From contig NZ_JALJYG010000013.1 of NCBI RefSeq assembly GCF_024170505.1, positions 1 to 64,000 of the forward strand: 64,000 bases of DNA, read 5' to 3'. Below are positions 843 to 58,154 of the stretch, piece by piece; the stretch's first letter is position 1; every line of letters begins with the position of its first letter. A model generated the notes under the pieces. That model did not search any database and was not told the DNA's origin. It was given only the letters and a program-made list of their open reading frames with translations. The position numbers were made by a program, and so were the translations under genes. This stretch comes from Methanocalculus alkaliphilus (GTDB lineage Archaea; Halobacteriota; Methanomicrobia; Methanomicrobiales; Methanocorpusculaceae).

Positions 843-880
843 GATCCCCCCGATCAAAACCGTCAGCACCCCGGCGATCC
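843..880. repeat. Relict copy of the gene tail beyond atpD
   Basis: Bases 843-880 match 1518-1555 at 35 of 38 positions in the same orientation; the only difference is AAA for GCC in the middle. The 1518-1555 copy lies inside a small membrane-peptide ORF at the end of the ATP synthase operon. The relict has no open frame of its own. The two copies bracket the decayed TA/HicB patch at 0.89-1.48 kb. Confidence 0.7.
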
Positions 881-893
881 AAAAAAGTGTGAC

Positions 894-955
894 CACCATC
901 GGTCAGTTCGATCCCGATCCTGGAATTGCTGATGCGAATCCTGAAGTATGGGGTT
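894..955 (-). pseudogene. relE/parE toxin remnant
   Basis: Read on the minus strand this stretch encodes YFRIRISNSRIGIELTD, the conserved core of RelE-type mRNA interferases (compare YFRIRIGSYKIGFELTDD in the second copy near 55.4 kb). The first ~60 codons of the toxin are missing and the frame is soon lost. It directly abuts the 3' end of the antitoxin-like ORF at 956-1243, the usual antitoxin-toxin order. Confidence 0.65.
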
Positions 956-1243
956 TCAGGCAGATTTCTTAATATTGTTGTAATAATTCAGAGCACCGGC
1001 ACAATCAAGAAGCTCATCGTCGTCTGATTCGCGGATATACCCTGTAAGACCATACTCCTCAAAAAGGGAATCAGTCTCTTCGGCATCCACCACCAAACCG
1101 ACAGGCCCTCTCTCCCCGGATGAACAGGCACATTGCCGGGACCTCATGAACCATATACCCTGCAACACTATCTCTTCATCATACCCAGGGGTTGGGAGGT
1201 CCCGGTATTCATGCCGGAGAGGAATCAGCAGCATAGTGGCCAT
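956..1243 (-). CDS. Degenerate Phd/RelB-like antitoxin
   Basis: The 95-residue product shares its C-terminal half with the antitoxin at 55595-55798: FEEYGLTGYIRESDDDELLD here against IEDYGLEKYIHESDEEEPLD there, both ending with a YY-K-K-SA tail. The N-terminal half, which in the intact relative starts MLEIKRQYIVSED, is not recognisable. With only a toxin fragment beside it, this looks like a decaying TA locus. Whether the ORF is still translated is unclear. Confidence 0.5.
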   Translation of the reverse strand: MATMLLIPLRHEYRDLPTPGYDEEIVLQGIWFMRSRQCACSSGERGPVGLVVDAEETDSLFEEYGLTGYIRESDDDELLDCAGALNYYNNIKKSA

Positions 1244-1287
1244 TCCTCTCCATTATCATCGTATATATAGTAAAAAGTGGGGGTAAA

Positions 1288-1479
1288 ATGGAATTTCATG
1301 TATTGATTCGAGCAGATCCCGAAGATGGAGGCTATACTGTCAGCTGCCCGGCCATCCCCGGATGCCACTCGCAGGGCGAAACGGTTGAAGAGGCTCTTGA
1401 AAATATACGGGATGCCATTGCTGGCTGTATTGGAGAGACCGATGAAGAAAGAGGGGATATCAGCATCACCCTCATCTGA
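1288..1479 (+). CDS. hicB: HicB-like (UPF0150) orphan antitoxin
   Basis: The 63-residue protein has the HicB fold signature: FHVLIRADPEDGGYTVSCP, then IPGCHSQGETVEEALENI. HicB proteins neutralise the HicA mRNA interferase. No hicA-like double-stranded-RNA-binding ORF lies on either side, and there is no C-terminal DNA-binding extension, so this is an orphan of the short HicB type. It sits in the same patch as the relBE remnants, between the two copies of the atpD-tail sequence. A stand-alone role, or pairing with a toxin elsewhere, are both possible. Confidence 0.75.
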   Translation: MEFHVLIRADPEDGGYTVSCPAIPGCHSQGETVEEALENIRDAIAGCIGETDEERGDISITLI

Positions 1480-1484
1480 TCCCC

Positions 1485-1595
1485 TCAGATAACCCCGACC
1501 AGCACCAGTATCAGCACGATCCCCCCGATCGCCACCGTCAGCACCCCGGCGATCCCAAGTGCAAGGTACAGCAACGGCAGGTAATTATTCACCAT
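1485..1595 (-). CDS. Small membrane peptide at the end of the ATP synthase operon
   Basis: A 36-codon ORF starts inside the stop region of atpD (the ATG at 1595-1593 overlaps the TGA) and encodes [14 protein letters not shown] followed by a hydrophobic stretch with a GGIVLILVLVGVI end, a single predicted membrane helix. The overlap suggests translational coupling. Some methanosarcinal ATPase operons end with a small extra gene (ahaG), but I see no sequence basis to equate them. A damaged partial copy lies at 843-880. Confidence 0.45.
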   Translation of the reverse strand: MVNNYLPLLYLALGIAGVLTVAIGGIVLILVLVGVI

Positions 1596-2236
1596 CGCCG
1601 CTCCTCCCCCCGTGACTTGGTCCGCTTTCTCCTGAAGAGATCCTCCCGCTCCTGCTCCTCAAGATAGTCGGAGATATACGCGATGATCCCCTTCAGCCGG
1701 GGAATCAGGATCGAGTCGAGGGCATTTGTCCGCCGCCGGACCGATGCTATCCGGGAGGAGAGGCGGAGGATCGCCCCCTCCACCCCGGCGAGCCGGACTG
1801 CCGCATCCACAGCCTCAAGGGCGAGATCCGAGGCGGCATCGAGGCGGCCGTTCCCGGCAGCCAGCCCGTACCCCGGCATCTTCCCCGGCCGGAGGGGGTC
1901 CGGGATCGCAAATGCCGGGATACCCACCCCCATGATCCCCTTCTCTATTGCAGGGATATCCGGGATCGTCCGTTCGACAGCCGCCGCACTCTCCACCTCA
2001 CGCCGGGAGCCCGCCATCTCAGCCTCCATGAGGGCAGGATAGGCGGCGGCAAACGCCTCCTCCATTGTTCGCCGCATCTCATCCCGCCGCTTTGTCAGGG
2101 AGAAGAACTCCATCACCATCGCATCAAGCTTCTCCCGGAGGAGCTCATGCCCCTTCTCGGCGGTCACAAGCCTGCGGCGGACCTTCTGGAGTTCAATGCG
2201 TGTCGGTCTCAGCCCCGGCGGGAGGCGCCTGCTCAC
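1589..2236 (-). CDS. atpD: A-type ATP synthase subunit D
   Basis: Subunit D is the central stalk coiled coil that rotates inside the A3B3 head. The product (215 residues) has the family start, [19 protein letters not shown], long N- and C-terminal helices, and a C-terminal segment containing [21 protein letters not shown], the typical conserved region. The length is normal. Its start overlaps the atpB stop by 4 bases, so it is translationally coupled as the last classical subunit of the operon. Confidence 0.95.
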
Positions 2237-3621
2237 CCGGTCTCACCCCGGTAATACTCCCTGATGAAGTCGGGGTTGATCCGTTTCAGCTCCTCTTGTG
2301 GGAAGAGGGAGAGGAGATCCCAGGCACGATCGAGGGTCTCGCCTATCGAGCGGCCCTCATCCATCTTCTGCCCGACGAACTCCCCCTCAAACCGCTCAAG
2401 GAAGGTGAGATACAGCCGGTCGGTATCGGTCAGCCCCTCATCCCCGATGACCGCGACAAGCCCGGCGAGCCGCCGTCCACGGGCATACGCCGCATAGAGC
2501 TGGCTTGAGACATTCGCATGATCCGCCCGGGTCCTCTCCTTGCCGATCCCCCCCTGCATCAGCCGTGATAAACAGGGGAGGACATCAATCGGGGGATAGA
2601 TCCCTTTGCGGTGGAGCTCACGGGAGAGGACGATCTGGCCTTCGGTGATATATCCGGTCAGATCGGGGACAGGGTGGGTGATGTCGTCATCCGGCATCGA
2701 GAGGATCGGCAGCTGGGTGATCGAGCCGGGCCTGCCTTTCACCCTCCCGGCACGCTCATACAGGGAGGCGAGATCGGTGTACATATACCCAGGATACCCC
2801 CGGCGGGCCGGGATCTCCTCACGGGCGGCCGAGACCTCCCTGAGCGCCTCGCAGTATGCCGTGATATCCTGCATCACCACAAGGACATGCATCCCGCAGT
2901 CAAATGCGAGATACTCCGCCGCCGTCAGGGCGAGACGGGGGGTGACGATCCGCTCGATGGCGGGATCATCGGCACGGTTGAGGAAGAGGACCGCGTGTGC
3001 CCGTGCCCCGGTCTCGGAGAACTCCCTGATAAAGAACCGGGCCTCCTCATGCGTGATCCCCATCGCTGCAAAGACGACGGCAAAGGACTCCTCCGTCCCC
3101 CGGACCCGTGCCTGCCGGGTGATCTGGGCGGCGAGCCGGCTGTGGGGCAGGCCGGACCCGGAGAAGACCGGGAGTTTCTGCCCCCGGACGAGGGTGTTCA
3201 TCCCGTCGATGGCAGATATCCCCGTCTCGATGAAATCCTCGGGGAACTCACGCCTCGTCGGGTTGATCGCATACCCCGAGATCTCCATCTCCTTCTCGGG
3301 CACAACGCGGCCCCCACCATCTATCGGCTCGGCCGAGCCCGAGAAGATCCTCCCGAGCATCTCCTTTGCAACCGGCATCATCAGGGGTTTTCCGGTGAAC
3401 CGGACCGCCGATACATCACAGTCGAGATCGCGGGTCCCGCCAAAGACCATCACAATCGCCATCCCCATCCGTGACTCGAGCACCTGGCCGAGCCGCCGGG
3501 TGCCATCCGGCAGGAGGACATGGACGACCTCGTTATATCCGGCATCATCGATCCCGGAGACGGCAAGGATCGGGCCCGCCACCCGGACGACGGACCGGAA
3601 CTCACGGAGCGGCCGGGTCAT
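2233..3621 (-). CDS. atpB: A-type ATP synthase subunit B
   Basis: This is the non-catalytic partner of subunit A in the hexameric head. The 462-residue protein carries the archaeal B signature [20 protein letters not shown] in place of a true P-loop, plus [19 protein letters not shown] and a late conserved [10 protein letters not shown]. The length matches the family. It overlaps atpA upstream and atpD downstream by 4 bases each. Confidence 0.97.
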
Positions 3622-5378
3622 CGCCCGCCTCCTCCAAAGGCATCATCAATCTCATCCAGTATCGTCTCATAGTCTTCGGCAAACTCATCATGCGGCCGGG
3701 GTCCCATCCGGGCAAGCCTGCCGGTAACCGGGATCTTCGCCGCCTCCTCAGCCGTCATCCCCTCCTCGACCGCATCCCTCCCACGGACCAGGTAGCGGTG
3801 AATCAGCCGCATCATCCGGTACTGCTTCTCCGGGGGGCAGAAGGTATCGACCTCATCAAATGCGGACTGGATGAGGAACGATTCCCGCAGGATAGTGGCG
3901 ACATGGAGCGTGAACTTGTCCTGTTCAGGGAGGAGATCAGGCCCGACGAGCTGGACGATCTCCTCAAGCTCGCTCTCCTTCTGGAGCAGCCTGATGAGGT
4001 CACTCCGCATCCTGCCCCATTCCGCTCCGCCATGCTTCTCCCACCAGGGCTCTGCCAGATCGGCGTAGAGCGAGTAGGAGAGGAGCCAGTTCACCGCCGG
4101 AAAATGTCGCTGGTGGGCGAGATCGGCATCCAGCGCCCAGAAGACCCGGACGATCCGGAGTGTGTTCTGGGTCACCGGCTCTGAGAAGTCGCCCCCCGGC
4201 GGCGAGACCGCACCGATGACCGAGACCGATCCCTCCTCCCCGGACAACGCCGTCACCCTTCCCGCACGCTCATAAAAGTCGGCAAGCCGTGATCCGAGAT
4301 AGGCGGGATACCCATGCTCTCCCGGCATCTCCTCGAGCCGGCCGGAGATCTCCCGCATCGCCTCGGCCCACCGGGAGGTGGAGTCGGCCATCAGGGCGAC
4401 GGAGTACCCCATATCCCGGTAATATTCGGCGATGGTGATCCCGGTATAGACCGATGCCTCGCGTGCGGCAACCGGCATATTCGAGGTGTTCCCGATGAGC
4501 ACCGTCCGTTTCATCAGTGGCTCCTTCGTCTTGGGATCGATGAGGGCAGGGAACTGCCTCAGGACGTCGGCCATCTCGTTTCCACGCTCTCCGCAGCCGA
4601 CATAGACGACAATATCCGCATCCGACCATTTGGCAAGCTGGTGCTGGACGACGGTCTTTCCGGCGCCAAAGGGGCCCGGTACCGAGGCCGTCCCCCCCTG
4701 GACCATCGGGAAGAAGGAGTCGATCACCCGCTGGCCGGTGATGAGCGGCCGGACCGGGGGGAGCTTCTCATTCACCGGCCGGGGTACACGGACCGGCCAG
4801 CGCTGGAGCATCGTGATCTCATGGTCGTTCCCATCCCGGTCAGTCAGCCAGAGGACGGGGTCAAGCACCGTGTACTCACCCTCCGGGGCGACCTTCGCCA
4901 CCCTCCCGGAGAGATGGGGTGGAAGGAGGATCGAATGGATGATCCGGTTCGTCTCCGGGACCGTCCCGATGACAGCTCCCCCTTTCAGGTCATCCCCTTC
5001 GGCGACATCCGGCGTGAACCTGTACGTCTCCTCCCTCGGGAGGGCAGGGCTGCTCACCCCCCGGATGATGAAGTCGCCGGAGATGGATCCAAGCTCGGTG
5101 AGGGGCCTCTGGATACCGTCATAGATCATCCCGAGGAGGCCGGGGCCGAGCTCGACCGAGAGGGACATCCCGGTCCGCTGCACCGGCTCGCCGGGGGTGA
5201 TCCCGCCTGTCTCCTCATAGACCTGGATCGTTGCAAGATCCTCCTCAAGCCCGATGATCTCGCCGATCAGCTCGTCATCTCCGACATAGACGACCTCGTA
5301 CATCTGTGCTCCACGCATCCGGTCCGCCTCGACGACAGGACCGGTGATCCGGATTATCCTTGCTGTATCACTCAACAC
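3618..5378 (-). CDS. atpA: A-type ATP synthase catalytic subunit A
   Basis: The 586-residue catalytic subunit binds and synthesises or hydrolyses ATP. The P-loop GPFGAGKT is at about residues 235-242, preceded by the non-homologous insertion typical of A/V-type A subunits (roughly residues 115-185). Other landmarks are [33 protein letters not shown] and [17 protein letters not shown]. It starts 3 bases after the atpF stop. No intein or other insertion is present. Confidence 0.98.
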
Positions 5379-5381
5379 ACA

Positions 5382-7478: not shown

Positions 7479-8933
7479 CTAGAGTCCTCCGAAGAGCCCG
7501 ATACCAAACATGATCAGGATCGCAATCAGGAGGCCGAAGATGGCAAAGGTCTCTGCCATCACCGCAAAGACGAGGCTCTGGCCCATCGCCTCAGGGCGGC
7601 GGGCGACCGCACCGATGCCTGCCGCCGCCGTCATCCCCTGGCCGATGGCGGAGAGCCCGGCAAGCCCGACGGCAAAGCCCGATCCGATGCAGGCAAGCCC
7701 GGCCGCCGCGGTTGCGGTCACATCCCGGGTGATGATCCCGGTGAATGCCATGATCAGGATTGCGACGAGGAGGCCATAGATCGCCTGGGTCTCCGGCACA
7801 ACCGTGAAGACGAGCCCTTTCCCAAACATATCCTCACGCTCCGAGGTCGTTGCAATCCCTGCGGATGCGGATATCCCCTGGCCGATGGCGGATATCGCGG
7901 CAAATCCGACGGCGATACCGCAGGCGATGGATGCAAATCCGGCGGCAAGGGTGGCGGTCACATCCCGGGTGATCATCCCGGTGAATGCCATGATGAGAAT
8001 TGCGACAAGGAGTCCGTATATCGCCTGCGTCTCCGGGATGACCGAGAAGACGAGGGACCGGCCAAACGACTCCTGCTTCTCGGCGGTCGCCGCAGCTCCC
8101 GCCGCCGCCGCTATTCCCTGGCCGATGGCGGAGAGCCCGGCGAGCCCGATGGCAAATCCGCACCCGAGGGCTGCGATCCCAAGTGCGGGCTCCGTGATGG
8201 GATCGCCGGCGATCATCCCGGTGAACGCCATGATGAGAATTGCGACAAGGAGTCCGTAGATCGCCTGCGTCTCGGGGATGACCGAGAAGACGAGTGAGCG
8301 GCCGAACGCACCCTCATGCTCGGCAGAGGAGGCCGAACCGGCGGCGGCCGCGATCCCCTGTCCGATGGCAGAGAGTCCTGCGATGCCGACGGCGAGCCCG
8401 CACCCGATGGCGGCAAACCCGGTCGCCGTCGTGGCGACCTCATCGCCGGAGAGGAGGCCGGTGAACGCCATGATGAGAATTGCGACAAGGAGTCCGTATA
8501 TCGCCTGCGTCTCCGGGATGACCGAGAAGACGAGCGATCGGCCCATCGACCCCTCACGCTCGGCGGCGGTTGCAATCCCCGAGGATGCCGCGATCCCCTG
8601 TCCGATGGCAGAGAGTCCTGCAACACCGACCGCAAGCCCGGCACCGAGTGCCGCAAGCCCCATCGGGACCGAGACGGTGGTATCACCGCCGCCTATCACC
8701 CCGGTCGCGAGGAGGATGAGGACGGCGACGAGGAGGCCGTACATCCCCTGTGTCTGGGGGACCGCCTGGAAGACGAGCGCCTGGCCGAACTTCTCCGGTT
8801 TGATCGCGATGACCCCTGCTCCCGTCGCCCCGGCGATACCGACCCCGATACCGGAGCCGATGGCTGAGAGGCCGACGGCAAGCCCGGCCCCGATGACGGC
8901 GAGGATGAACCCGGCTGTTATCTCAGGTATCAT
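7479..8933 (-). CDS. atpK: A-type ATP synthase rotor subunit K (c), six fused hairpins
   Basis: The rotor subunit carries the coupling ions. The 484-residue protein consists of six tandem helical hairpins of about 80 residues (12 membrane helices), not the single hairpin of ~80 residues. Five hairpins have the ion-binding glutamate in the second helix: E141, E221, E301, E381 (all in PETQAIYG) and E461 (AETFAIFG). The first has Q60 (PQTQGMYG) instead. Hairpins 2-6 also keep a glutamine in the first helix (SAIGQG), which hairpin 1 lacks. Gln with Glu-Thr is the pattern associated with sodium coupling in this family; sodium use here is inferred. Start overlaps atpI by 4 bases. Confidence 0.97.
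   Translation of the reverse strand: MIPEITAGFILAVIGAGLAVGLSAIGSGIGVGIAGATGAGVIAIKPEKFGQALVFQAVPQTQGMYGLLVAVLILLATGVIGGGDTTVSVPMGLAALGAGLAVGVAGLSAIGQGIAASSGIATAAEREGSMGRSLVFSVIPETQAIYGLLVAILIMAFTGLLSGDEVATTATGFAAIGCGLAVGIAGLSAIGQGIAAAAGSASSAEHEGAFGRSLVFSVIPETQAIYGLLVAILIMAFTGMIAGDPITEPALGIAALGCGFAIGLAGLSAIGQGIAAAAGAAATAEKQESFGRSLVFSVIPETQAIYGLLVAILIMAFTGMITRDVTATLAAGFASIACGIAVGFAAISAIGQGISASAGIATTSEREDMFGKGLVFTVVPETQAIYGLLVAILIMAFTGIITRDVTATAAAGLACIGSGFAVGLAGLSAIGQGMTAAAGIGAVARRPEAMGQSLVFAVMAETFAIFGLLIAILIMFGIGLFGGL
7740..8580. repeat. 240-bp in-frame tandem repeats within atpK
   Basis: Near-identical blocks recur every 240 bases; for example the block beginning GTGAACGCCATGATGAG at 8221 recurs exactly at 8461, and a one-base variant stands at 7981. 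Because 240 is 80 codons, unequal recombination would add or remove a whole hairpin without breaking the frame. The high DNA identity between hairpins 2, 3 and 4 suggests recent duplication or gene conversion. Confidence 0.85.
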
Positions 8934-10912: not shown

Positions 10913-11228
10913 CCCTGTCTCCCGTGACCGCCCTGATGATCACCCTCACCCCGTCTCTCTTCTTGGAGGCGGCGAGTGCATGCAGACGCTTCACCGCCTC
11001 CTCCGCATCGAGCGCCATCGTTTCCGCGACAGACTCCGCATCGCTTCGTGCCCGGCTGATCTCCTCTTCTGCCGCTCTCCGGGCCTTCTTCTCCTCTTCC
11101 CTGATATACTCTGCCGCTCTCTTCTCTTCTGATTCGATGGCTGATGCCGCCTCTGCCTTCGCAGCCTCGATCTGCGAGACGGCCTCCTCTTCGACCTTCA
11201 GGACGGCCTCGATATCATGAACGGGCAT
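10896..11228 (-). CDS. atpH: A-type ATP synthase subunit H
   Basis: Subunit H is the long helical partner of E in the peripheral stalk. The 110-residue product is almost entirely charged coiled coil (alternating E/A/K/R, residues 5-90) with a short C-terminal tail. It is the first gene of the operon, next to a TATA-like element. Part of its interior is duplicated in shortened form at 14.88-14.97 kb. Confidence 0.9.
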   Translation of the reverse strand: MPVHDIEAVLKVEEEAVSQIEAAKAEAASAIESEEKRAAEYIREEEKKARRAAEEEISRARSDAESVAETMALDAEEAVKRLHALAASKKRDGVRVIIRAVTGDRDVLSG

Positions 11229-11249
11229 ACTGGAGTTTATGGACGGCTC

Positions 11250-11260
11250 CTATATAAAAT
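11250..11260. promoter_or_regulatory. TATA element between atpH and aroQ
   Basis: The sequence CTATATAAAAT reads as a good archaeal TATA box on the plus strand, about 50 bases before the aroQ start at 11307. Its complement ATTTTATATAG could equally serve atpH, which starts 22 bases away; that would give a leaderless or very short-leader ATP synthase transcript. No second TATA box was found in the 78-base gap. Confidence 0.55.
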
Positions 11261-11306
11261 GAACACGAGGCGATCTTTTTTTATCTTTATGAGTTTATTT
11301 CTCAGT

Positions 11307-11591
11307 ATGGGTATCACTGAGATACGGGAGGAGATTGCCCGTGTGGATATGGAGATTCTGGAGCTTATCAGAAAGCGGCAGTCGCTTGCCGGGATGATGG
11401 CACAGGAGAAGATCAAAGCAGGCAGGCCGCCGGTCGATCCCGATCAGCGTGGCCAGGTGATCGCCCGGGCGGTGGATGTCGCGGTTGAGGCGGGGATCGA
11501 TCCCTCTGGCATCAAGGAGATCTTCACCCGCCTTGTTCTGATGAGTGAGCAGAAGCAGAGCGGGTGCATGGGGGATGGTAATCTGCCGTAA
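11307..11591 (+). CDS. aroQ: Chorismate mutase (AroQ class)
   Basis: It converts chorismate to prephenate in phenylalanine/tyrosine synthesis. The 94-residue all-helical product has the AroQ pattern: IREEIARVDMEILELIRKRQ with the first active-site arginine/lysine region, then MMAQEKIKAGRPPVDPDQR and a third helix. The ATG at 11307 was chosen over upstream in-frame starts because the family begins about here and the upstream codons overlap the promoter. The last ~65 codons are duplicated almost exactly at 14.97-15.16 kb. Confidence 0.88.
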   Translation: MGITEIREEIARVDMEILELIRKRQSLAGMMAQEKIKAGRPPVDPDQRGQVIARAVDVAVEAGIDPSGIKEIFTRLVLMSEQKQSGCMGDGNLP

Positions 11592-11648
11592 AAAGGGGTG
11601 GTTTTCCTCCCTCATGGGGGCTGTCGCCAGGTACCACTCCGGATCAAC

Positions 11649-12665
11649 TCAATCCTGGGAAAAAAGTGATTCAGCTCCGATTATCTCAAGAGGCTTTGAG
11701 GAATTCCCGCTGAATAATGTCTTGATGAGAGCTGATATAACAGAAGCATCTGTCAGATAGAGTCTCATATTCCCATTTAATTCCCATGGTTTCTCAATGG
11801 TAATGGCACAGTGTTCTGACAGGGATGAGATGGTATCCGTTGATCTGATGACTCCCCGCTCAGGATCCCATTCTGAGATCGCAATCTGAATGACTGTTTT
11901 GGGAATCCCAAAACCATTGCAATAGGGAATAATCACATCGTTTGGTAGGTATTTTCCATTCTCCTCGGATACACTTCTTTTCTTCACAAGAGCATTGAGA
12001 ATGGTTTTAACTCTCTTAACCGGTGTTCCTTCATCCTCCTGGACAAGCCCGGGAAGGGATGAGAAGACAGTACTGCCTGGAATTGTCTCAGCCCTCTTCA
12101 ACATCACTTCGACTTCGTCTGCATCAAACCCGTTGCTGAATGTGGAGATATTCTCCCCAGACGGTATTTCCCGGCCGATAGGAAGCTCCCATGAGAGATC
12201 ACAGAGAGCCAGAAGGACTTTCATCTCGTTGAATGTCGCAGGAATCATCCATGATTGAAGCCTGGTGGCATTATTACCTTCCATCCCAAACTGGCTGATA
12301 ACCCAGTCAGTTTTTAGTGATTCTCCGAAAGCCACCGTTCCGTCGTCGCCATGGAGCATTGTTACTGCATCTGATTCACGAGAGAAGATTGTCGTTATGG
12401 TGCTCTCTTTTTCTTCACCTGAAAAGGTGATGGTGATGATTCGGACAGGGGTTGCCAGTGTATTGAGTGTGCTGGCAAAAGAACTCATTATATTGCCCTG
12501 CTCATCAAGAATGCCGCCCTCTTTGAAGGATTGCAGGACAGGTTTCTTTGCCATGCTCTCTGTTTTGGGATCAAGATACGTAAGCGGGGTTCGATCACCC
12601 TCCCAGAATGATCCGAGTTCTCCAAGCATCCCGGTTTCAAGTGTATAGGTGGGCTTTTCGTTCAT
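11649..12665 (-). CDS. Unknown protein, second gene of an accessory pair
   Basis: The 338-residue product starts MNEKPTYTLETGMLGELGSF after a strong ribosome site (AAGGGGGG). No membrane helix or signal peptide is visible. It looks like a soluble mixed alpha/beta protein; a central block includes ATPVRIITITFSGEE and ESWELP-like patches (LCDLSWELPIGREIP). I do not recognise the family. It begins one base after the stop of the upstream membrane protein gene, so the two are co-translated and probably act together. Base composition is less GC-rich than the flanking ATPase genes, consistent with acquisition. Confidence 0.75.
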   Translation of the reverse strand: MNEKPTYTLETGMLGELGSFWEGDRTPLTYLDPKTESMAKKPVLQSFKEGGILDEQGNIMSSFASTLNTLATPVRIITITFSGEEKESTITTIFSRESDAVTMLHGDDGTVAFGESLKTDWVISQFGMEGNNATRLQSWMIPATFNEMKVLLALCDLSWELPIGREIPSGENISTFSNGFDADEVEVMLKRAETIPGSTVFSSLPGLVQEDEGTPVKRVKTILNALVKKRSVSEENGKYLPNDVIIPYCNGFGIPKTVIQIAISEWDPERGVIRSTDTISSLSEHCAITIEKPWELNGNMRLYLTDASVISALIKTLFSGNSSKPLEIIGAESLFSQD

Positions 12666-12666
12666 G

Positions 12667-14661
12667 TCACCATACCCCCCTTTCAATCTGCTGCTGTGTA
12701 TCGCGTATCTTCCGCTTGATCTCCCGAGTTTCTTCGAGCATCTCCTCCTTTGATGGCATGCTGTCGAGCCGGGATCTAAGTTCTCTTCTCCGGGTCTGGA
12801 TCTCCTGCCACTCGCTGGTAAGTTCTTTGGTAGTGACCTCTCTACCAAAAAGCTCCTCCTTTGCTTCATCAAGGGGTGTTTCAATTTCTAACTTTTCTTT
12901 GACACCATCGTAGATCGTCTGTTTGGGATCGGTTACTGCATCCCAGGTCTCCTTCCCCATCTTGAACATAGTCCTGACACCCTGCCTCTTATATTCCCTC
13001 TGAGCTCTTTCATAATCTGCCTGGATCTCTCTTCTCTCCTGCCAGGTGCTCCTGATCTCCTGTTCCCGGGTTTCCAGTTCGCTGATATGATCTCTCAGCT
13101 GTTGGATTCGCCACTCCGGCATCGTCTCCTCTCCCGGCTGGGTGGGTGCTTCAGGTGCTGCCGGGGGATCAGACATGATCGGGGCTTTTGGTATCCGTGG
13201 AGGTTCCACTTCCTGCTTCGGTTCTTGTGGCATCTCCGGTTCTACCGGTCCTTCAGGTTCTGGCTGCGGATGCTCCGGAGTGGGTGGTGTCTCCGGGGTT
13301 TTTGGCGGTTCTCTCTCTGGTATTGGCTCTCCTGGTGCTTCAGGCTCAGGCATCTCAGGGGCCACCGGTGCCTCCGGGGTTGTATCTGGAAGTTCCTGCT
13401 TTGGTGCTGCTCCTCCCTGATCCCCTGACTGTTCTCTGTATCTTCTGTACTCCGGGTTGTCCCGGTACGGATCGTCTGGTGTTCCCCTCCCAATGATCTC
13501 AGGAGGTCTTCCAACCTGCTCGGGATATTGTGTAAGACTACCATCAGCCTCAGTCTTCCCGATAGAACCCGCATCGCGGAACGGATCATCTGGTGTACCA
13601 GTACCGTATATACCGGAGTCGGGGCGTCCAGGTGAAGCTCCGGCAGCAGAAGTTCCCGCTGCTCCGGCTCCAGATGAGCCCATACCTGCTGTTATTCCCG
13701 CAAGCGAAGACGCACCGCCGGATATTGTCAGGGTTGAGAGAATGCCCGCTATTGTTGCAGATGCAGGAAAGATGCCAACAATGAGAGCGGTTCCGGTATT
13801 GTTATAGGGACATGAGCAGCTGCTGCTTATCGGCATCCCTCCGACAGCTGCGAGAACCGGGGTTGTGAGAAGGCTTGCCGCCATGAGAACCAGAATACCG
13901 GTCAGGGCAGTAGCAGCTTCAGGTGACCTCCCGGATCCCTTCTGCATGTGATACCAGTAGAGTGCATACCCCAGAGCCGCTATCGCAATAATGAGAGAGC
14001 CGATCCGGGGAATGAACGCAGCAAGCAGAAATCCTGCTGAACAACCGGTGATTACAAGGGTTGTTCGCTCTATCTCAAGGGGAGAGAAGGCAGGTTCATT
14101 CAGGAAGATCCGTTTCAGATCAGAATACCCGACGCCTGAGACGAGTAACAATACACTCTCCTCCCGTGCGGTGAATGAGAGGAGGAGGAGGATTGCAATA
14201 AGAATCGAAACAAGATAATTCTGGAAAATTGCACCGATAAGTCCACCTATGCCAATCCCGGCAGCGAGCAGAGCAGTTGATTCAGCCTCATAGAGGGATC
14301 TGGATTGGCTGATCCACTCTGGAACCTCCTTAATCTCCCTGATATAGCCGTCTACTCCATGCTGCCTGATCTTGAGAAACACTGTTGTTCCAAGCATCGC
14401 AATAAGCAGCCAGAATAAGGTTCCGGTAATCAACCCGTCAGTGACTGCGAGCATATTTCCAAGGAGGTCTCCTCTTCCACGGATGCTCTGGTTAATATAA
14501 AAGAGAACAAAGGTATGCAGGATATAGATTCCAATAAAGATACCAATGAAAAGTGGAATTGTTCTTTTCAGATTTCTGACCATCCCCTCAACCATAATAC
14601 CGGCAATATCTGCAAGTGTTTCGGGGCCGGGTGTATTCCTGGGTATATCGTTTCTCTCCAT
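12667..14661 (-). CDS. Unknown membrane protein with Pro-rich linker and coiled coil
   Basis: The 664-residue product has five layers in order: a short soluble start; about eight hydrophobic segments (residues ~30-310); a Gly/Ala/Ser-rich stretch; two copies of a GTPDDPxRD motif (GTGTPDDPFRDAG and GRGTPDDPYRDNP); a long Pro/Glu linker; and a charged C-terminal coiled coil of ~150 residues (HISELETREQEIRSTWQE onward). The layout suggests a membrane anchor displaying a cytoplasmic helical arm. No family is recognised. ATG 14661 is preferred over 14685 because GGAGTGG lies just upstream. Confidence 0.75.
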   Translation of the reverse strand: MERNDIPRNTPGPETLADIAGIMVEGMVRNLKRTIPLFIGIFIGIYILHTFVLFYINQSIRGRGDLLGNMLAVTDGLITGTLFWLLIAMLGTTVFLKIRQHGVDGYIREIKEVPEWISQSRSLYEAESTALLAAGIGIGGLIGAIFQNYLVSILIAILLLLSFTAREESVLLLVSGVGYSDLKRIFLNEPAFSPLEIERTTLVITGCSAGFLLAAFIPRIGSLIIAIAALGYALYWYHMQKGSGRSPEAATALTGILVLMAASLLTTPVLAAVGGMPISSSCSCPYNNTGTALIVGIFPASATIAGILSTLTISGGASSLAGITAGMGSSGAGAAGTSAAGASPGRPDSGIYGTGTPDDPFRDAGSIGKTEADGSLTQYPEQVGRPPEIIGRGTPDDPYRDNPEYRRYREQSGDQGGAAPKQELPDTTPEAPVAPEMPEPEAPGEPIPEREPPKTPETPPTPEHPQPEPEGPVEPEMPQEPKQEVEPPRIPKAPIMSDPPAAPEAPTQPGEETMPEWRIQQLRDHISELETREQEIRSTWQERREIQADYERAQREYKRQGVRTMFKMGKETWDAVTDPKQTIYDGVKEKLEIETPLDEAKEELFGREVTTKELTSEWQEIQTRRRELRSRLDSMPSKEEMLEETREIKRKIRDTQQQIERGVW

Positions 14662-14715
14662 CTGCACCACTCCATTGGCTATCAATGAAAATTTAGCGAT
14701 ACGCTTTCATTCTTC

Positions 14716-14877: not shown

Positions 14878-15169
14878 GTGACAAGGCGGCGAGTGCATGC
14901 AGACGCTTCACCGCCTCCTCCGCATCGCTTCGTGCCCGGCTGTTCTCCTCGTCTGCCGCTTTCCGGGATGATGGCACAGGAGAAGATCAAAGCGGGCAGG
15001 CCGCCGGTCGATCCCGATCAGCGTGGCCAGGTGATCGCCCGGGCGGTGGATGTCGCGGTTGAGGCGGGGATCGATCCCTCCGGCATCAAGGAGATCTTCA
15101 CCCGCCTTGTTCTGATGAGTGAGCAGAAGCAGAGCGGGTGCATGGGGGACGGTAATCTGCCGTAAAAAG
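14878..15169 (+). pseudogene. Shortened duplicate of the atpH-aroQ junction
   Basis: Bases 14965-15169 repeat 11391-11595 (offset 3574) with only about three differences in 205, giving an aroQ copy that lacks the N-terminal helix with its catalytic residue. Bases 14880-14964 repeat the interior of atpH (from about 10966 on), with a 30-40 base deletion between two CTCCGCATCG copies. The atpH and aroQ pieces are joined at the shared pentamer CCGGG, so the promoter and both gene starts are missing. Orientation is the same as in the original. Confidence 0.9.
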
Positions 15170-15192
15170 AATTGGAGAGCCGGGTCTCTCCC

Positions 15193-41142: not shown

Positions 41143-42756
41143 TTATGCCCCGACCATCCTTTTCATATCTTCCTCGACTGTGGTGTTTGGCTTGAGATCG
41201 AAGTTCTTCACCAGCACATCAAGGACCGTCGGAGAGACGAATCCCGGAAGCCTTGGGCCGAGGGTGATACCCTGTATCCCGAGGGAGAGGAGCGAGAGGA
41301 GGACGAGGCATGCCTTCTGCTCATACCAGGCGATGTTGTAAGCAATCGGGAGATCGTTGATCCCGACCCCGAAAGCCTCGGCAAGTGCCTGGGCGATGAC
41401 AACCAGGGAATAGCAGTCATTGCACTGGCCTGCATCCAGGACCCGTGGAATCCCGCCGATTGTCCCGAGATCAAGGCTGTTGTACCGGTACTTGGCACAC
41501 CCGGCGGTAAGGATGACCGTATCCTTTGGGAGCGCCTCTGCAAACTCTGTATAATACGCACGGTCTTTGCGCCTCCCGTCACAGCCTGCCATCACGATGA
41601 ACTTTTTGATGTCCCCGTTCTTCACCGCATCGACGACCGTCCCAGCTATTGAGAGGACCGCGTCATGGGCGCAGCCGGTGATGAGATCCCTCCCGCTCCC
41701 CGGAAGCGCCTGCGGGGGTTCTGCGGTCTTTGCTGCGGCGATGACTGCTGCAAAGTCCTTGGTGCCGTCCGCAGATGCCGGGATGTGGGCAATGCCCGGA
41801 TAACCGGCAAGCCCTGTCGTATAGATCCTCCCCTTGTAGGAGTCCTTTGGCGGGACGATACAGTTTGTTGTGACAAGGACCGGCCCGTTGAAGCTCTCAA
41901 ACTCCTCCTTCTGGTCTGGCCAGGAGCCGCCGTAGTTCCCGACAAGGTGTGCGTATTTCTTGAATGCCGGATAGGCATGGGCAGGCAGCATCTCGCCATG
42001 CGTATAGATATCGACTCCGGCATCCTGTGACTGCTCAAGGAGCATCTCAAGGTCTTTTAAGTCATGGCCGGTGATCAGAATACCGGGCCGGGATCCGGGG
42101 GTGGTCTTCACGCTTGTGATCTCCGGCTTTCCATATGCCCCGGTATTGGCTGCATCGAGGAGTGCGAGCACCTTCACACCATGCTCTCCACATTCGAGGA
42201 CGAGTGCGACCATCTCATCGACTGAGAGATCCCGGAGTGTTGAGGCGAGCCCTCTCTGGAGGAAGAGCTCGATATCCGGATCTCTCTTTCCAAGCACCTC
42301 GGCATGCGTATAGTAGGCGGCGATCCCCTTCATTCCGAAGAGGAGGGTTGAACGGAGCGAGCGAACATCTTCGTTCTCTGTGGCAAGGAGCCCGGCGGTC
42401 TTCCCCTTTGCCAGCATATCGGCTTCGGATGCCGGCTTCCAGGTGCATGCATCCGGCTCGTCCGTTCCTGCCGGGAGGCCGTCACGGATTGTGATTGCTT
42501 TCTTGATCAGATCAACAAATCTCTCCTTATCGAAGTTGACATTGGTCAGGGTCGCAAAGAGGGCATCCGCGATGAATAATCCGGCCTTCGGATCATCCTT
42601 TCCGGTCTCCATCGCCTGGAGATTCCGAACCGCAATTCCCTTGCAGAGATGGATGAGGAGATCCTGGTACACCGCGATCTCATCCTCCTTTCCACATACT
42701 CCTTTGACTGTACAGCCGTTTCCTTTGACGGTCTCTTCACACTGGTTACAGAACAT
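41143..42756 (-). CDS. hcp: Hybrid cluster protein (hydroxylamine reductase)
   Basis: Hcp reduces hydroxylamine or nitric oxide and protects against nitrosative stress. The 537-residue product starts [15 protein letters not shown], the N-terminal Fe-S site, and has later hybrid-cluster ligands in NCIVPPKDSYKGRIYTTGL, LTAGCAKYRYN and VLDAGQCNDCYSL. ATG 42756 follows a strong AAAGGAGG. Its first codons and promoter are repeated at 43200-43385, with an antitoxin gene inserted between. Confidence 0.96.
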   Translation of the reverse strand: MFCNQCEETVKGNGCTVKGVCGKEDEIAVYQDLLIHLCKGIAVRNLQAMETGKDDPKAGLFIADALFATLTNVNFDKERFVDLIKKAITIRDGLPAGTDEPDACTWKPASEADMLAKGKTAGLLATENEDVRSLRSTLLFGMKGIAAYYTHAEVLGKRDPDIELFLQRGLASTLRDLSVDEMVALVLECGEHGVKVLALLDAANTGAYGKPEITSVKTTPGSRPGILITGHDLKDLEMLLEQSQDAGVDIYTHGEMLPAHAYPAFKKYAHLVGNYGGSWPDQKEEFESFNGPVLVTTNCIVPPKDSYKGRIYTTGLAGYPGIAHIPASADGTKDFAAVIAAAKTAEPPQALPGSGRDLITGCAHDAVLSIAGTVVDAVKNGDIKKFIVMAGCDGRRKDRAYYTEFAEALPKDTVILTAGCAKYRYNSLDLGTIGGIPRVLDAGQCNDCYSLVVIAQALAEAFGVGINDLPIAYNIAWYEQKACLVLLSLLSLGIQGITLGPRLPGFVSPTVLDVLVKNFDLKPNTTVEEDMKRMVGA

Positions 42757-42868
42757 CGAAATCCTCCTTTGATATCTTTTTGATACGAGATACCTATTAC
42801 ATACTATATTATAAATAGAGGAGAGTTTCCAATAGTATACCATGCAGGAAGGGTGTACAGTCAATCTG
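42683..42868. repeat. Direct repeat, copy A (hcp start, promoter, truncated HxlR start)
   Basis: This 186-base stretch contains the first ~24 codons of hcp (minus), the shared promoter, and the first nine codons of the HxlR gene (plus), after which the copy meets a stop at the junction (MQEGCTVNL then TAA). It matches 43200-43385 at about 176 of 186 positions in the same orientation. Confidence 0.92.
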
Positions 42869-42941
42869 TAACCAACATCTCTACCTTCCGGAGTTTGAGC
42901 GGTAGTATCCCTTATGGTATACTGTGGAGTACTATAGTAAC

Positions 42942-43178
42942 ATGGCGACATCCCAGACGATTAAACTTGAATCTTCAACAAAAGAGCGGCTGAACAGGTT
43001 GAAGATCCATCCCCGTGAAACCTATAACGACTGTATTGAGCGCCTGATTGATGTGATATATGATGATGAACCCCTCTCTGAAGAGACCGTCAGGCGTCTG
43101 GATGAGGCAGAGATCTCTATAAAAGCTGGAAAATACAGGCCTCTTGACGACGCCATGAGGGATCTTGATCTCCTGTGA
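42942..43178 (+). CDS. Ribbon-helix-helix antitoxin-like protein
   Basis: The 78-residue product has the RHH-antitoxin layout: [35 protein letters not shown], and an acidic helical tail ending in MRDLDLL. It overlaps by GTGA a second frame starting [10 protein letters not shown], the expected place of a toxin, but that frame runs into repeat copy B after eight codons. Thus the toxin is lost and this is an orphan. A GTG at 42924 is an alternative start. Confidence 0.7.
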
Positions 43179-43199
43179 AACCCTTTGACATTGTCATCC

Positions 43200-43385
43200 T
43201 CCTCCTTTCCACATACTCCCCTGACGGTGCAACCGTTTCCTTTGACGGTCTCTTCGCACTGGTTACAGAACATCGAAATCCCCCTTTGATATCTTTTTGA
43301 TACAAGATACCTATTACATACTATATTATAAATAGAGGGGAGTTTCCAATACTATACCATGCAGGAAGGGTGTACAGTCAATCTG
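43200..43385. repeat. Direct repeat, copy B (hcp start fragment, promoter, HxlR start)
   Basis: The second copy of the 186-base unit. Here the hcp part (minus, [20 protein letters not shown] and a few more codons) breaks off, while the HxlR gene continues intact. So the native divergent hcp-HxlR pair has been pushed apart by about 517 bases and each half keeps a stub of the other. Confidence 0.92.
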
Positions 43386-43718
43386 ACGGTCCGATACCTC
43401 TCAAAGAAGTGGATGCTCTTAATCATCCTTGAGCTGTACAAAGGCGAAGCCTACACCCGCCGGTTTTCCGAGCTGCGGACCTCCCTGGATGGAATCACCC
43501 CGAAGGTCCTCTCTGAGCGGCTGAGGGAGCTTGAGGAAGAGGGGCTCCTCACCCGCCGTATTGATACCAGCGTCTTTCCGGTCCGCTCAGAGTACTGCCT
43601 GACCGAGAGCGGCCTTGAGATCGTTGATCTGATCCGTGATATTAAACGCTGGGCACTCAAATGGAAGATCGATAACATCCCCTGCGGTGAGCAGGACTGC
43701 AAGAAATGCATCCTTTAA
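43359..43718 (+). CDS. HxlR-family transcriptional regulator
   Basis: The 119-residue winged-helix protein has the family pattern: an early cysteine (MQEGCTVNL), LSKKWMLLIILELYKGE, RFSELRTSLDGITPKVLSERLREL and FPVRSEYCLTESG. Its C-terminus CGEQDCKKCIL adds three cysteines that could sense redox or nitrosative signals. Originally divergent from hcp, it is a good candidate for its regulator. Followed 10 bases on by the Fe-S protein. Confidence 0.9.
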   Translation: MQEGCTVNLTVRYLSKKWMLLIILELYKGEAYTRRFSELRTSLDGITPKVLSERLRELEEEGLLTRRIDTSVFPVRSEYCLTESGLEIVDLIRDIKRWALKWKIDNIPCGEQDCKKCIL

Positions 43719-53752: not shown

Positions 53753-53858
53753 CCCGGTTTCCGGGGTGAGAAAAGAGGTGGCGTCTCTGGCAGCCGCCAC
53801 CGAAGGGATGCAGTTTATGGGTGGGAGAGGGGTATGTGGTATGGAATGGGGGTGTTGA

Positions 53859-53999: not shown

Positions 54000-54150
54000 A
54001 ATGAATAGTTCGGATGTTTACGAATATATATTTTGTGGATGGATGTACGGGGTCTCTTCGACGATAGACGAGCATTCCGGGGTGGGCGGCAAATGGTGGT
54101 CCGGCATTCCCATGATAAACTATAAAGCCGGTTCCGATGCTCTTCTTATC

Positions 54151-55101: not shown

Positions 55102-55153
55102 GGGGTGTATCGCCACCGGAGGGGGCGAAATGATGATCGGAAGATAGATGTTG

Positions 55154-55293
55154 ATGAAGTACAACGGAAACCATATCGCATCCCGGCTCTGGGTCGCTGC
55201 CGATGAGATGCATACTCATTCCAGGCTGGATCTCCGGCTCGAATAGACAGTTTTCTCCCTGGTCAATCATTGTCTCTACACTGTCGAGACAAT
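55154..55293 (+). pseudogene. Relict of hsdM start joined to a DUF1016 fragment
   Basis: Bases 55154-55246 encode a 30-codon stub (starting MKYNGNHIASRLWVAADEM) closely matching the start of hsdM at 56140 ([17 protein letters not shown]) and then stop. Bases 55269-55293 are identical to 57903-57927 in the DUF1016 gene beyond hsdM, encoding IVSTLSRQ. The intervening ~1.7 kb is missing, so this is a deleted direct duplicate of the hsdM-DUF1016 segment lying on the far side of the relBE pair. Confidence 0.85.
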
Positions 55294-55319
55294 CAGGGTG
55301 GGGGTCGTTGACCTCCTAT

Positions 55320-55593
55320 TCAGGGGAAAACCGAGTATATCTCTTCCCTGCTTTTTACCCGGTGAAAGATTATGCGGCCGTCATCGGTCAGTTCAAAGCC
55401 GATCTTGTAACTGCCAATGCGAATCCTGAAATACCCCGGCATACCTCTCATCCGGCTGATGTCGAAGTCAGAAAAGATGTCATCAGAATCCGGAATTTTC
55501 TCAAAAAACTATCTCTTCAATACATTTTTGAAAAAGGTTCTGAATTCTTGACAGATCCTTCAGAAATGTCTTTTTATAGAAACAATCTGGCAT
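55320..55593 (-). pseudogene. relE: relE-type toxin gene with a one-base frameshift
   Basis: From ATG 55593 the frame reads MPDCFYKKTFLKDLSRIQNL and stops at codon 31 inside a run of six T (minus strand; As at 55503-55508). Removing one T restores a 90-residue RelE: EKIPDSDDIFSDFDISRMRG, YFRIRIGSYKIGFELTDD, RIIFHRVKSREEIYSVFP. The gene begins one base after the antitoxin stop. It is a young pseudogene, a sequencing error, or possibly a slippage-controlled gene. Confidence 0.85.
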
Positions 55594-55594
55594 T

Positions 55595-55798
55595 TCAGGC
55601 AGATTCCTTTAGTTTTCTGTAATATTTCAGAGCCTGGTTGCGATCCAGAGGTTCTTCTTCATCAGATTCGTGGATGTATTTTTCAAGCCCATAATCCTCA
55701 ATAATCGATTCAATCTTTTCGAATGTTGAGATATCGATCACCACGCTGACGGCCTTGTTATCCTCTGAAACGATATACTGGCGTTTTATCTCTAACAT
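55595..55798 (-). CDS. Phd/RelB-like antitoxin
   Basis: The 67-residue product starts MLEIKRQYIVSEDNKAVSVV and contains FEKIESIIEDYGLEKYIHES, a pattern of short antitoxins that precede RelE toxins in archaea. ATG 55798 has GAGGT upstream and is preferred to 55828. Its toxin partner follows after one base but is frameshifted. A degenerate relative lies at 956-1243. Confidence 0.8.
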   Translation of the reverse strand: MLEIKRQYIVSEDNKAVSVVIDISTFEKIESIIEDYGLEKYIHESDEEEPLDRNQALKYYRKLKESA

Positions 55799-56139
55799 AA
55801 TCCTGACCTCATTACCCATATGCCCCATTATACTATAAAGTCTCTATGTCTCATAATTTGATTCTGATTCAGGGGTATTCTCTATTGATACAGACAGGGA
55901 CCGCATAAGATGATGATTTCCCTTTTGAGAGCATATAACGATACATTGGCATTTGGGAACGGGTTCGGTAAAGACCTTCGGGGCTTGAGCGATCCTGAAG
56001 ATGGAATGAGAAATAAAAGTCTTTATCGTTCTTGCTGAGAGAGTAATCATTCAGACGAGATATGCGGGGATATGGCAGATCCCGTTGCCGATTACCCATC
56101 TCACCACTCAGCCTTATAACACAGACAGGTAGCAACTCC
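55799..56139. other. Gap between the antitoxin and hsdM
   Basis: About 340 bases without a convincing gene. On the minus strand TTTATAGTATAATG (near 55834-55847) is a likely TATA box for the antitoxin operon. The hsdM promoter should lie in the right half, but no clear box was identified. A long in-frame extension of hsdM to 56062 has no coding support. Confidence 0.4.
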
Positions 56140-57690
56140 ATGAACAACAACGGAAACCATATCGAATCCCGGCTCTGGGCAGCAGCCGATGAGCTGCGTG
56201 CCAACTCCAAGCTGAAATCATCCGAATACTCTGTCCCGGTTCTCGGGCTCGTCTTCCTCCGGTATGCTGATCACCGGTTCCAGGCGGCGGCAGCGAGGAT
56301 TGAAGGCGGGGGGAGCGGGAGGCGAAAGATCGGCCCTGATGATTATAAGGCAGAGGGTGTCCTGTACCTGCCGGAGAAGGCCCGGTTCTCACAGCTGATG
56401 ATGATCACGGAGGGCTCGCATATCGGAGAAGCGATCAACGAGGCGATGCGGGCAATCGAGGCCGAGAACCCGGATCTGAAGGATGTCCTCCCCAAGACCT
56501 ACAATCGCTTCGAGAATGCCCTTCTGAAGGAACTCCTTAAGACGATGAACTCGGTGCCGATGGATATCGAGGGGGATGCCTTCGGCAGGATCTATGAGTA
56601 CTTCCTCGGCAACTTCGCACGTGCCGAAGGGCAGAAGGGAGGGGAGTTCTTCACCCCGCTCGCCCTCGTCCGGCTGATCGTCGCCATCATCGAGCCGTTC
56701 CACGGAAGAATCTATGATCCCGCCTGTGGATCCGGGGGCATGTTTGTCCAGAGCGCCCGGTTCGTCGAGGAGCACCGGAAGAATCCGGGCTCCGAGCTGA
56801 GTGTCTTTGGCCAGGAGAAGGTCGGCGAGACCGTCCGGCTCGGGAAGATGAACCTCGCCGTTCACGGTCTTTCAGGCGATATCCGGGAGGGGAACGCCTA
56901 CTATGAGGATCTCCACAACGCACCCGGCAGGTTCGACTTCGTGATGGCAAATCCCCCCTTCAATGTGGACCGGGTTGATAAGGAGCGGCTGAAGGATGAT
57001 CCCCGGTTCCCCTTCGGCCTTCCGAGGGTGGATAACGGCAATTACCTCTGGATACAGATCTTCTACAGTGCCTTACATGAGAACGGGCGGGCGGGCTTTG
57101 TGATGGCGAACTCGGCATCTGACGCCCGCAGTTCTGAATGCGATATCCGGCGGCAGATCATCGCCGACCGTGCCGTCGATGTGATGGTCGCCGTCGGCTC
57201 GAACTTCTTCTATACCGTCACCCTCCCCTGCACCCTCTGGTTCTTTGACAAGGCAAAGCGGAAGACCGATCGGGCCGACCAGATCCTCTTCATCGATGCA
57301 CGCCATATCTACACCCAGGTGGACCGTGCCCACCGGGACTGGACACCCGCCCAGATCGAGTTCCTCGCAAATATCGCCCGTCTCTACCGGGGCGAGGCGG
57401 CAGAGAACCTCCACGAAAGTGCGGAGCTGATGGCTGAGCACTTCCCGGAGAACACCTACATCGATATCCCCGGTCTCTGCAAAGTGGCGACGATCGACGA
57501 GGTGGAGGCACAGGGCTTCAGCCTCAATCCTGGCCGGTATGTGGGGGTGAAGGCACGGGAGGAGGATGACTTCGACTTCAGGGAGCGGCTCGAGGAGCTG
57601 AACGAGGAGCTGGAGTTGTTGAATCTGGAGGCGAGGGAGCTTGAGGAGCGGATCGCGGAGAATGTGGGGAAGTTGTTGGAGGGGGAGTGA
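56140..57690 (+). CDS. hsdM: Type I restriction-modification DNA methyltransferase
   Basis: HsdM methylates adenine within the site recognised by HsdS. The 516-residue product has an N-terminal helical HsdM domain, motif [17 protein letters not shown] (residues ~193-208) and catalytic motif [11 protein letters not shown] (NPPF ~271), plus a C-terminal coiled coil. ATG 56140 matches the family start. Its stop overlaps the next ATG (TGATG). First gene of the island. Confidence 0.96.
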
Positions 57691-58154
57691 TGAGGAAGGA
57701 GGAGATCGTTTCAGTAACGAATGAACCTGATTCCCCACCTATAGAAATCGCTCTTCTGCAAGAACTGCGCATCTTAATCGAAGAGACACGTAAAGGCGTT
57801 TCTATTGCGGTCAATGCCTCCCTGACGCTACTCTACTGGCGGGTTGGCAGACATATCAATGAAGAGGTATTTACTGGTGAAAGAGCCAGATACGGCGAAC
57901 AGATTGTCTCTACACTGTCGAGACAATTGGAAATTTCATATTTAAGGGAATTCATCATCTTCAAAGAACCTCTTCAATGCAATTCCAGCATCGGGAATTG
58001 CAGGCTTGATGGGTTGAATGTTAGCGCTCTCTGGACGAAGGTAGCATGTATGCTACACAAAAGCACGATTCCTTTGGAAAAATCAGAAGATAATAAGTCG
58101 GTCAATTTTATTGTTTACAATTATTTTTTCAAGGAGAGAACTAATGTCCTTTAA
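57690..58154 (+). pseudogene. DUF1016 (YhcG N-terminal) gene with internal and C-terminal deletions
   Basis: The 154-codon frame matches the DUF1016 N-domain: LQELRILIEETRKGVSIAVN, LTLLYWRVGRHINEEV, YGEQIVSTLSRQL. The family has two LSRQL motifs about 30 residues apart; here the text jumps from the first to what normally follows the second (ISYLREFIIFKEPLQ, then CRLDGLNVSALWTKVACML). The C-terminal PD-(D/E)XK nuclease domain is gone. It overlaps the hsdS start by 11 bases. Probably non-functional. Confidence 0.7.

Follow-up and report, generated by a model that had tools for sequence, protein, structure and literature searches.

The window considered here comprises 64,000 nucleotides (nt) of Methanocalculus alkaliphilus (positions 1 to 64,000 of NZ_JALJYG010000013.1) and forms most of contig C13 (64,301 bases) in genome G000, which is 2.09 Mb long and divided into 37 contigs. 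Four groups of accessory genes in this window are each enclosed by a pair of direct repeats of native sequence, an arrangement called here a bracket. The enclosed genes are relBE relics and hicB in front of the ATP synthase operon (pair 1), a two-gene module beside aroQ (pair 2), an RHH antitoxin between hcp and hxlR (pair 3) and relBE sequences next to hsdM (pair 4). Such brackets are best explained as the scars of local tandem duplications which were later trimmed, a reading to which we assign a probability of about 0.6. This route has detailed support at pair 3, and we infer it for the other pairs. The comparison set consists of seven congeners (G001-G007), of which G003 is M. chunghsingensis K1F9705b; its contig C20 is syntenic with the window at 82-96% identity.

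The repeat pairs were sought by two methods, a seed-extension search and a self-BLAST of the window. All four pairs claimed in an earlier note on this DNA were recovered by both, with self-BLAST E-values of at most 2.5e-8, and their alignment gave 41 nt at 90% identity for pair 1, about 290 nt at 94-100% for pair 2, 189 nt at 94% for pair 3 and 75 nt at 83% for pair 4. No sequence is shared among the four pairs; they are mutually unrelated, and the idea that the four cassettes have a target sequence or ends in common was rejected. The earlier note saw no transposase, and this holds for the cassettes, while positions 1-95 of the window do contain the end of an insertion sequence (IS) that bounds none of them. 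This IS end (also G000:C9:1-95) is common to several contigs, has an apparent 9-nt target duplication and appears to split a vitamin B12-uptake-type cluster between contigs C9 and C13. The cassettes are not recent entries throughout, and the underlying events are of different ages: pair 2 occurs in G000 alone (98%), pair 3 is older than the split from M. chunghsingensis, and pair 4 is old (79-83%).

The features at pair 3 are the following.

41143-42951, minus strand: hcp open reading frame (ORF), hydroxylamine reductase equivalog, matching residues 66-601; the true start is probably near 42758
42680-42868: left copy, with the hcp start, the promoter and the first 27 nt of hxlR
42869-42899, plus strand: carried donor flank, two fragments of the DUF5591 gene 5′ region (compared with the G007 donor and G000:C20)
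42924-43178, plus strand: RHH antitoxin of the DUF7557 family (PF24434, E=3.8e-12)
43175-43198, plus strand: relE 5′ remnant of 8 codons, with a deletion at a TCATC microhomology
43197-43385: right copy, with the hcp 5′ fragment, the promoter and the hxlR start
43359-43718, plus strand: HxlR-type regulator (PF01638)

The repeats duplicate the entire divergent hcp-hxlR promoter, with hcp beginning in the left copy and hxlR in the right copy. Both copies serve working genes, so the rule that one copy stays with the working gene and the other is truncated fails at this pair. The cassette had been described as an RHH antitoxin; the antitoxin is real, but it is an orphan in the window only, where relE is lost after codon 8 at the TCATC repeat. 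The cassette of G003 is 285 bp longer and encodes the RHH antitoxin together with a RelE/ParE-family toxin. This toxin (PF05016) adjoins the orthologue of the window's PF24434 antitoxin, which is the adjacency of a type II RHH-RelE (DUF7557/ParE_toxin) pair. Cassette 3 is predicted to be such a type II toxin-antitoxin system, of which only the antitoxin is left in the window.

The history of this cassette can be followed across the congeners. The hcp-hxlR junction is uninterrupted in G001, G004, G005 and G006, and the same RHH-RelE cassette is located upstream of the DUF5591 gene in G005 and G007; in G007, this donor-site cassette lies in a bracket of its own, made by a 116-bp direct copy of the DUF5591 5′ region (G007:C548:1492-2297). 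In G003, the moved cassette is flanked by DUF5591-derived sequence on both sides, the left pieces being AACCAACATCT and CTACCTTCCGGAGTTTGAG. The transition from its right edge to the hcp fragment falls precisely on TCATCCTCCT, a 10-mer common to the donor flank and hcp, and its left edge joins hxlR at TCTG. A relE 3′ scar is present upstream of DUF5591 in both G000 (G000:C20:621-) and G003 (C20:122955-). Donor and target have the same orientation; in G003 they share a contig with about 19 kb between them, and in G005 the distance is about 5 kb. A look for hcp-hxlR sequence at the donor site found none. G000 and G003 together have four promoter copies, which form one group, with 92-96% mutual identity and 80-86% identity to the empty sites; therefore, the duplication arose inside the lineage, and an origin from a foreign circle was rejected for pair 3.

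The joints and scars are seen directly. As to the order of the steps, the simplest history would begin with a tandem duplication spanning from inside hcp to just past relE. The left copy would then have lost everything between the hxlR start and the cassette, the right copy would have lost the cassette, and relE would later have been deleted in the window at the TCATC repeat. Judged from these sequences, a tandem duplication followed by the loss of different parts from each copy is a well-supported reading of pair 3.

The repeats of pair 1 lie at the start of the window, beside the ATP synthase operon.

843-883: truncated copy of a small membrane ORF that adjoins the ATP synthase operon, 90% identical to 1518-1558
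897-948, minus strand: relE C-terminal relic, 83% identical to 55382-55433
956-1243, minus strand: RelB-like antitoxin relic (PF18506, E=8e-5, under the curated cut-off)
1288-1479, plus strand: HicB-like antitoxin (PF15919, E=5e-10)
1485-1595, minus strand: native small membrane ORF of 36 amino acids (aa) before the ATP synthase operon, containing the copy 1518-1558

The small membrane ORF is kept in front of the atp genes in the congeners examined, and the order in G003 is relB-hicB-hicA-Dam-AIPR-small ORF-atp. On contig C9 of G000, Dam-AIPR and about 24 nt of the small ORF are followed by the vitamin B12-uptake-type cluster, which by colinearity with G002 runs from C9 over the IS into the start of the window. 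After this cluster, the window continues with the 41-nt small-ORF copy, relE′, relB′, hicB and the intact small ORF. Since G000 splits the G003-type order in this way, with Dam-AIPR and the small-ORF end on C9 and relB-hicB and the rest in the window, pair 1 is probably a product of tandem duplication and reciprocal loss, in which each copy retains what the other lost. Within the ATP synthase operon, positions 7479-8933 hold a single long ORF with about six 240-bp repeats, which is probably a multi-hairpin proteolipid (c/K) subunit.

At pair 2, the enclosed genes are of a different kind. The names atpH and aroQ are labels of the earlier note, given without a family search.

10967-11595: native copy, with the atpH 5′ half, the divergent promoter and aroQ (chorismate mutase), located by seed extension and self-BLAST
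11649-12884, minus strand: module gene 2, 411 aa, no family match, related DNA in G002
12667-14685, minus strand: module gene 1, 672 aa, no credible family match
14884-15169: decayed atpH-aroQ copy that lacks two internal stretches, one lost at a 10-nt and the other at a 5-nt microhomology

The decayed copy corresponds to 10967-11595 minus two internal stretches, and its three pieces are 100%, 94% and 98% identical to the native sequence. One deletion joint lies between two CTCCGCATCG repeats (the 10-nt microhomology) and the other at CCGGG (the 5-nt one). The module (11649-14685) has no match in Pfam or PADLOC and no credible one in NCBIfam. Its 672-aa product, a membrane protein with a proline-rich linker accompanied by the 411-aa partner, has strong relatives only in G002 (85%) and in a single genome from a different genus of the order (42%) among 61 genomes searched. 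In G002, the two-gene module adjoins the counterpart of the window's 15.5-kb gene.

In G001, G004 and G007, aroQ and the next gene are directly adjacent, which represents an empty site with one repeat copy. Together with the uninterrupted junctions described above, the comparison with relatives lacking a cassette, as the earlier note had advised, yielded empty sites for pair 3 (four congeners) and pair 2 (three congeners). G003 and G005 carry an unrelated 2-kb insert at the same point downstream of aroQ, without a duplicate; by reading of the sequence, it contains a methyltransferase and an endonuclease-like gene. The junction downstream of aroQ (window 11595 / 15185) is thus an insertion hot spot across the congeners. 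The 145 nt following the module were tried as a pointer to a donor and match nothing convincing in the genus. Because the pair 2 duplication is confined to G000 and, with copies 98% identical, is recent, both a duplication after insertion and an insertion with target duplication fit.

Pair 4 is located at the type I restriction genes.

55154-55228, plus strand: hsdM 5′ relic, 75 nt, 83% identical to 56140-56214
55236-55293: relic of the hsdR-DUF5591 spacer, including a 25-nt motif that DUF1016 also contains
55318-55508, minus strand: relE relic
55595-55828, minus strand: RelB antitoxin (PF18506, E=3.8e-25)
56140-57690, plus strand: intact hsdM (type I methyltransferase)
57687-58154, plus strand: DUF1016 N-terminal fragment gene (PF17761)

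The left side of this bracket had been read as repeating parts of hsdM-DUF1016. The hsdM part stands, but the second piece derives from the hsdR-DUF5591 spacer: 25 nt are common to 55269-55293 and the DUF1016 gene (57903-57927), while 55236-55293 has a longer match in the downstream spacer of hsdR (G000:C20:210-267, 58 nt, 79%), and a DUF1016 origin was rejected in favour of this better match. The 25-nt palindrome-like motif was also considered as a repeat element; it occurs at three places in G000 and at one each in G003 and G006, and does not form a family. The relics, in the order hsdM′, hsdR-downstream spacer and relBE, are colinear with hsdM..hsdR and nearly equal in decay (83% and 79%). 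The order in the window, in which these relics precede hsdM, is compatible with the remnant expected after a left copy loses its middle. This scar is old, because both relics are only about 80% identical to their sources. The replacement of an older restriction cluster by a new one is a possible alternative. With regard to the features labelled X1 and X2, X2 and hsdM are directly joined in G005, the order in G003 is X1-X2-relBE with hsdM deleted, and X1-X2 is gone in G000. Pairs 2 and 4 are both compatible with the duplication-loss route and less resolved than pair 3.

Two further observations concern this restriction cluster. An AriA-like AAA ATPase (PADLOC AriA, E=2.6e-30) and a 240-aa gene without a match form a two-gene defence-type system (G003:C20:116088-118092), which adjoins the type I restriction cluster in G003, G004 and G005 and is deleted in G000 at about 55165. 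The Schlafen/AlbA_2 gene of the cluster contains 11-nt tandem repeats (window 60599-60657).

The recurrence of brackets was examined in blind scans, and the enrichment test was run on genome samples. In G000, 900 kb outside the window were scanned for direct pairs of at least 78% identity and 52 bits with a gap below 6 kb. Inspection then removed tandem paralogues, repeat proteins and short-gap pairs, which left six non-paralogous brackets, half of them with toxin-antitoxin genes against 0.11 expected under random placement (P=5e-5): HicB (with HicA) by DUF447, a PIN toxin by a GHMP kinase (98.5%) and RelE-RHH by a hexapeptide transferase. The other three hold a Schlafen/AlbA_2 protein, an AAA-DUF4143 ATPase and a partial copy of mtrA. 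The last one, in the mtr operon (G000:C1:16816-18277, by reading), is a partial tandem copy of 535 bp at 95% without an accessory gene between. Scanning of 548 kb of G003 gave toxin-antitoxin genes in two of five brackets (0.36 expected, P=0.04), the remaining ones being a DUF4062-Schlafen pair, a YhcG nuclease and a DUF2254 membrane protein. The 400 kb of G010, from a sister genus of the same family, gave one bracket, whose enclosed gene reads as a P-type ATPase. No toxin-antitoxin genes were seen by inspection in 22 random intervals. The comparison of flanking duplicates with random positions, which the earlier note had proposed, thus revealed a toxin-antitoxin excess in two genomes, and such genes lie in pairs 1, 3 and 4 and in five blind brackets.

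The DUF447 locus is an empty site with a single repeat copy in G002, G006 and G007, and one G003 bracket encloses an MNT-HEPN pair where its counterpart in G000 holds the Schlafen/AlbA_2 protein. At G003:C15:39974-43756, the DUF447 3′ end is present in three stacked copies with a HicB gene and a Schlafen/AlbA_2 gene between them. A dense island of HicAB, PIN, MNT-HepT and RelE-type genes lies between direct copies of an apparent nucleotide-sugar dehydrogenase at G003:C12:10.4-20.8 kb.

The earlier note proposed a common route for the cassettes, either the integration of a circle carrying host DNA or a tandem duplication followed by deletion. The pattern itself recurs in the blind scan and the second version fits, whereas the circle gained no positive evidence. 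The process would start with illegitimate recombination at a microhomology of a few nt, which would join the far edge of a segment to a point inside an upstream native gene. Such a segment would contain a resident toxin-antitoxin or other accessory gene, and the product would be a tandem duplication. Short-repeat deletions would then remove the intervening native genes from one copy and the accessory gene from the other. The expected remnant is a native gene, an accessory gene and a truncated native copy, with the accessory gene shifted by kilobases to tens of kilobases in unchanged orientation, and later decay would wear down the truncated copy and sometimes the toxin too. Lineage-internal sister copies beside the moved gene were found for pairs 3 and 2, and a donor on the same chromosome and in the same orientation, with a remnant or a complementary loss, was found for pairs 3 and 1.

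After the loss of the second accessory copy, recombination between the repeats would delete the sole remaining one, and addiction or benefit would then protect the arrangement. The toxin-antitoxin excess between repeats may reflect survival, because this tidying recombination would remove the antitoxin once a single copy remains. A broader proposal is offered only tentatively: toxin-antitoxin genes would lock tandem duplications by punishing the repeat recombination that restores a single copy, and, with the scars persisting, would relocate themselves and drive changes in archaeal gene order.

An alternative, which we consider unlikely, is insertion with long target duplication, in which a circular or replicative form of the cassette is the moving intermediate and its insertion duplicates 40-300 bp of the target. 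It would produce the same anatomy with variable repeat length; pair 2 and the bracket on contig C5 (57884-59304, 98.5%) resemble a single target that was interrupted and left with a copy at either side, and empty single-copy sites exist in relatives for pair 2, pair 3 and DUF447. Precedents are the restriction-modification genes of Helicobacter pylori and the circle model for Arabidopsis transposed genes (PMC3874152, PMC1643837, PMC2869330). A circle at pair 3, however, would have nothing to recombine with, since the donor site is without hcp-hxlR homology, and the carried flanks and the microhomology joint of this pair would follow from a tandem duplication without an extra step; relocation also keeps orientation and spans 5-20 kb. 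Site-specific mobile elements that have lost their integrase, with the repeats as att sites, are a very improbable source. The direct repeats are often at gene ends and the insertions at the DUF447 3′ end of G003 are stacked, but the repeats differ every time, include gene 5′ ends and promoters and range from 41 to about 300 nt. Moreover, the same RHH-RelE cassette occupies two unrelated sites, shared ends are missing, and no integrase family was found among the interval proteins searched.

The pattern could also be a matter of survivorship and not of route: duplications and deletions would occur everywhere, and scars would last only around an addictive or useful gene between the repeats, vanishing elsewhere because repeat recombination restores the single copy. 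The bracket intervals hold mostly toxin-antitoxin or defence-type genes where random intervals hold housekeeping genes, the scar ages vary widely, and the same logic underlies the SNAP model (PMC7055797). Yet the toxin is gone or decayed in several brackets (pairs 1, 3 and 4), so addiction cannot hold these now, and the mtrA bracket is without an accessory gene. As the explanation in place of a route, survivorship is rather improbable; it is compatible with tandem duplication and the two are not exclusive. Chance similarity, ordinary paralogy or an assembly artefact is scarcely credible: pair 1 is just 41 nt long, pair 4 is 83% identical and the genomes are drafts, but the E-values are low as given above, pair 3 is present in an independent isolate too, and misassembly is excluded because the copies have diverged.

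Several points weigh against the tandem duplication reading. Bracketed examples served as the seed for the list of toxin-antitoxin families, so that the P values of 5e-5 and 0.04 are optimistic and the enrichment is somewhat overstated. No donor was identified for the blind brackets on C2, C5 and C6, nor a donor position for pair 2, and in these cases insertion with target duplication fits equally. A single genome supplies the 10-nt duplication junction of pair 3, because the relE deletion removed it from the window. Among the draft genomes compared, no intermediate with two intact copies was seen, and the adjacency of C9 and C13 comes from synteny with G002. At the DUF447 locus, the G004 copies group apart from those of G000 and G003. 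This grouping by lineage implies repeated events at one place or gene conversion, which are inseparable here, and a concerted origin of the copies across species was rejected.

At pair 3, the move of chromosomal toxin-antitoxin genes without a transposon is readable step by step from the empty site, the donor site, the carried flanks, the microhomology joint and the donor scar. Toxin-antitoxin genes are in excess between the scars in two Methanocalculus species, and such scars are rare in the sister-genus sample. Duplication and reciprocal loss, possibly held by addiction, would offer a concrete and testable route to a pattern that restriction-modification genes have been known to show since 2000.

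Nobusato et al. (2000), as cited in PMC1643837 and PMC3874152, described insertion with long target duplication for the restriction-modification genes of H. pylori. So far as those citing papers present it, the H. pylori system resembles the brackets in having addiction-type accessory genes between long direct duplications of host sequence, of the order of 100 bp and variable, without a transposase. The Methanocalculus brackets differ from that description in their archaeal host, in their toxin-antitoxin and Schlafen/AlbA-type genes, and in the visible donor site, carried flanks and donor scar, which point to duplication plus loss. No papers describing such brackets were found in a search that joined toxin-antitoxin genes with long target duplications and left most of the subscription literature outside. 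In the SNAP model (PMC7055797), a segment is duplicated and different genes are lost from each copy, leading to a new gene order, while unique genes in each copy block reversion. The loss step of the Methanocalculus brackets follows a similar logic; unlike SNAP, their scale is kilobases to tens of kilobases, the joints are microhomologies, and the unique gene between the repeats is biased towards toxin-antitoxin genes. Transposed genes of Arabidopsis are likewise relocated between direct repeats homologous to the target site, and the reinsertion of a circle was proposed for them (PMC2869330), but the pair 3 donor is without the target homology that a circle needs. In Haloquadratum walsbyi, deletions occur at direct repeats of about 4-20 bp (PMC3119063), similar to the short-repeat deletions in the decay of pairs 2 and 3, although they are not tied to duplication scars of relocated genes. 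The anatomy of the brackets and the logic of the loss were thus already known; new are the bias towards toxin-antitoxin genes, the occurrence in an archaeal lineage and the donor evidence with its scars.

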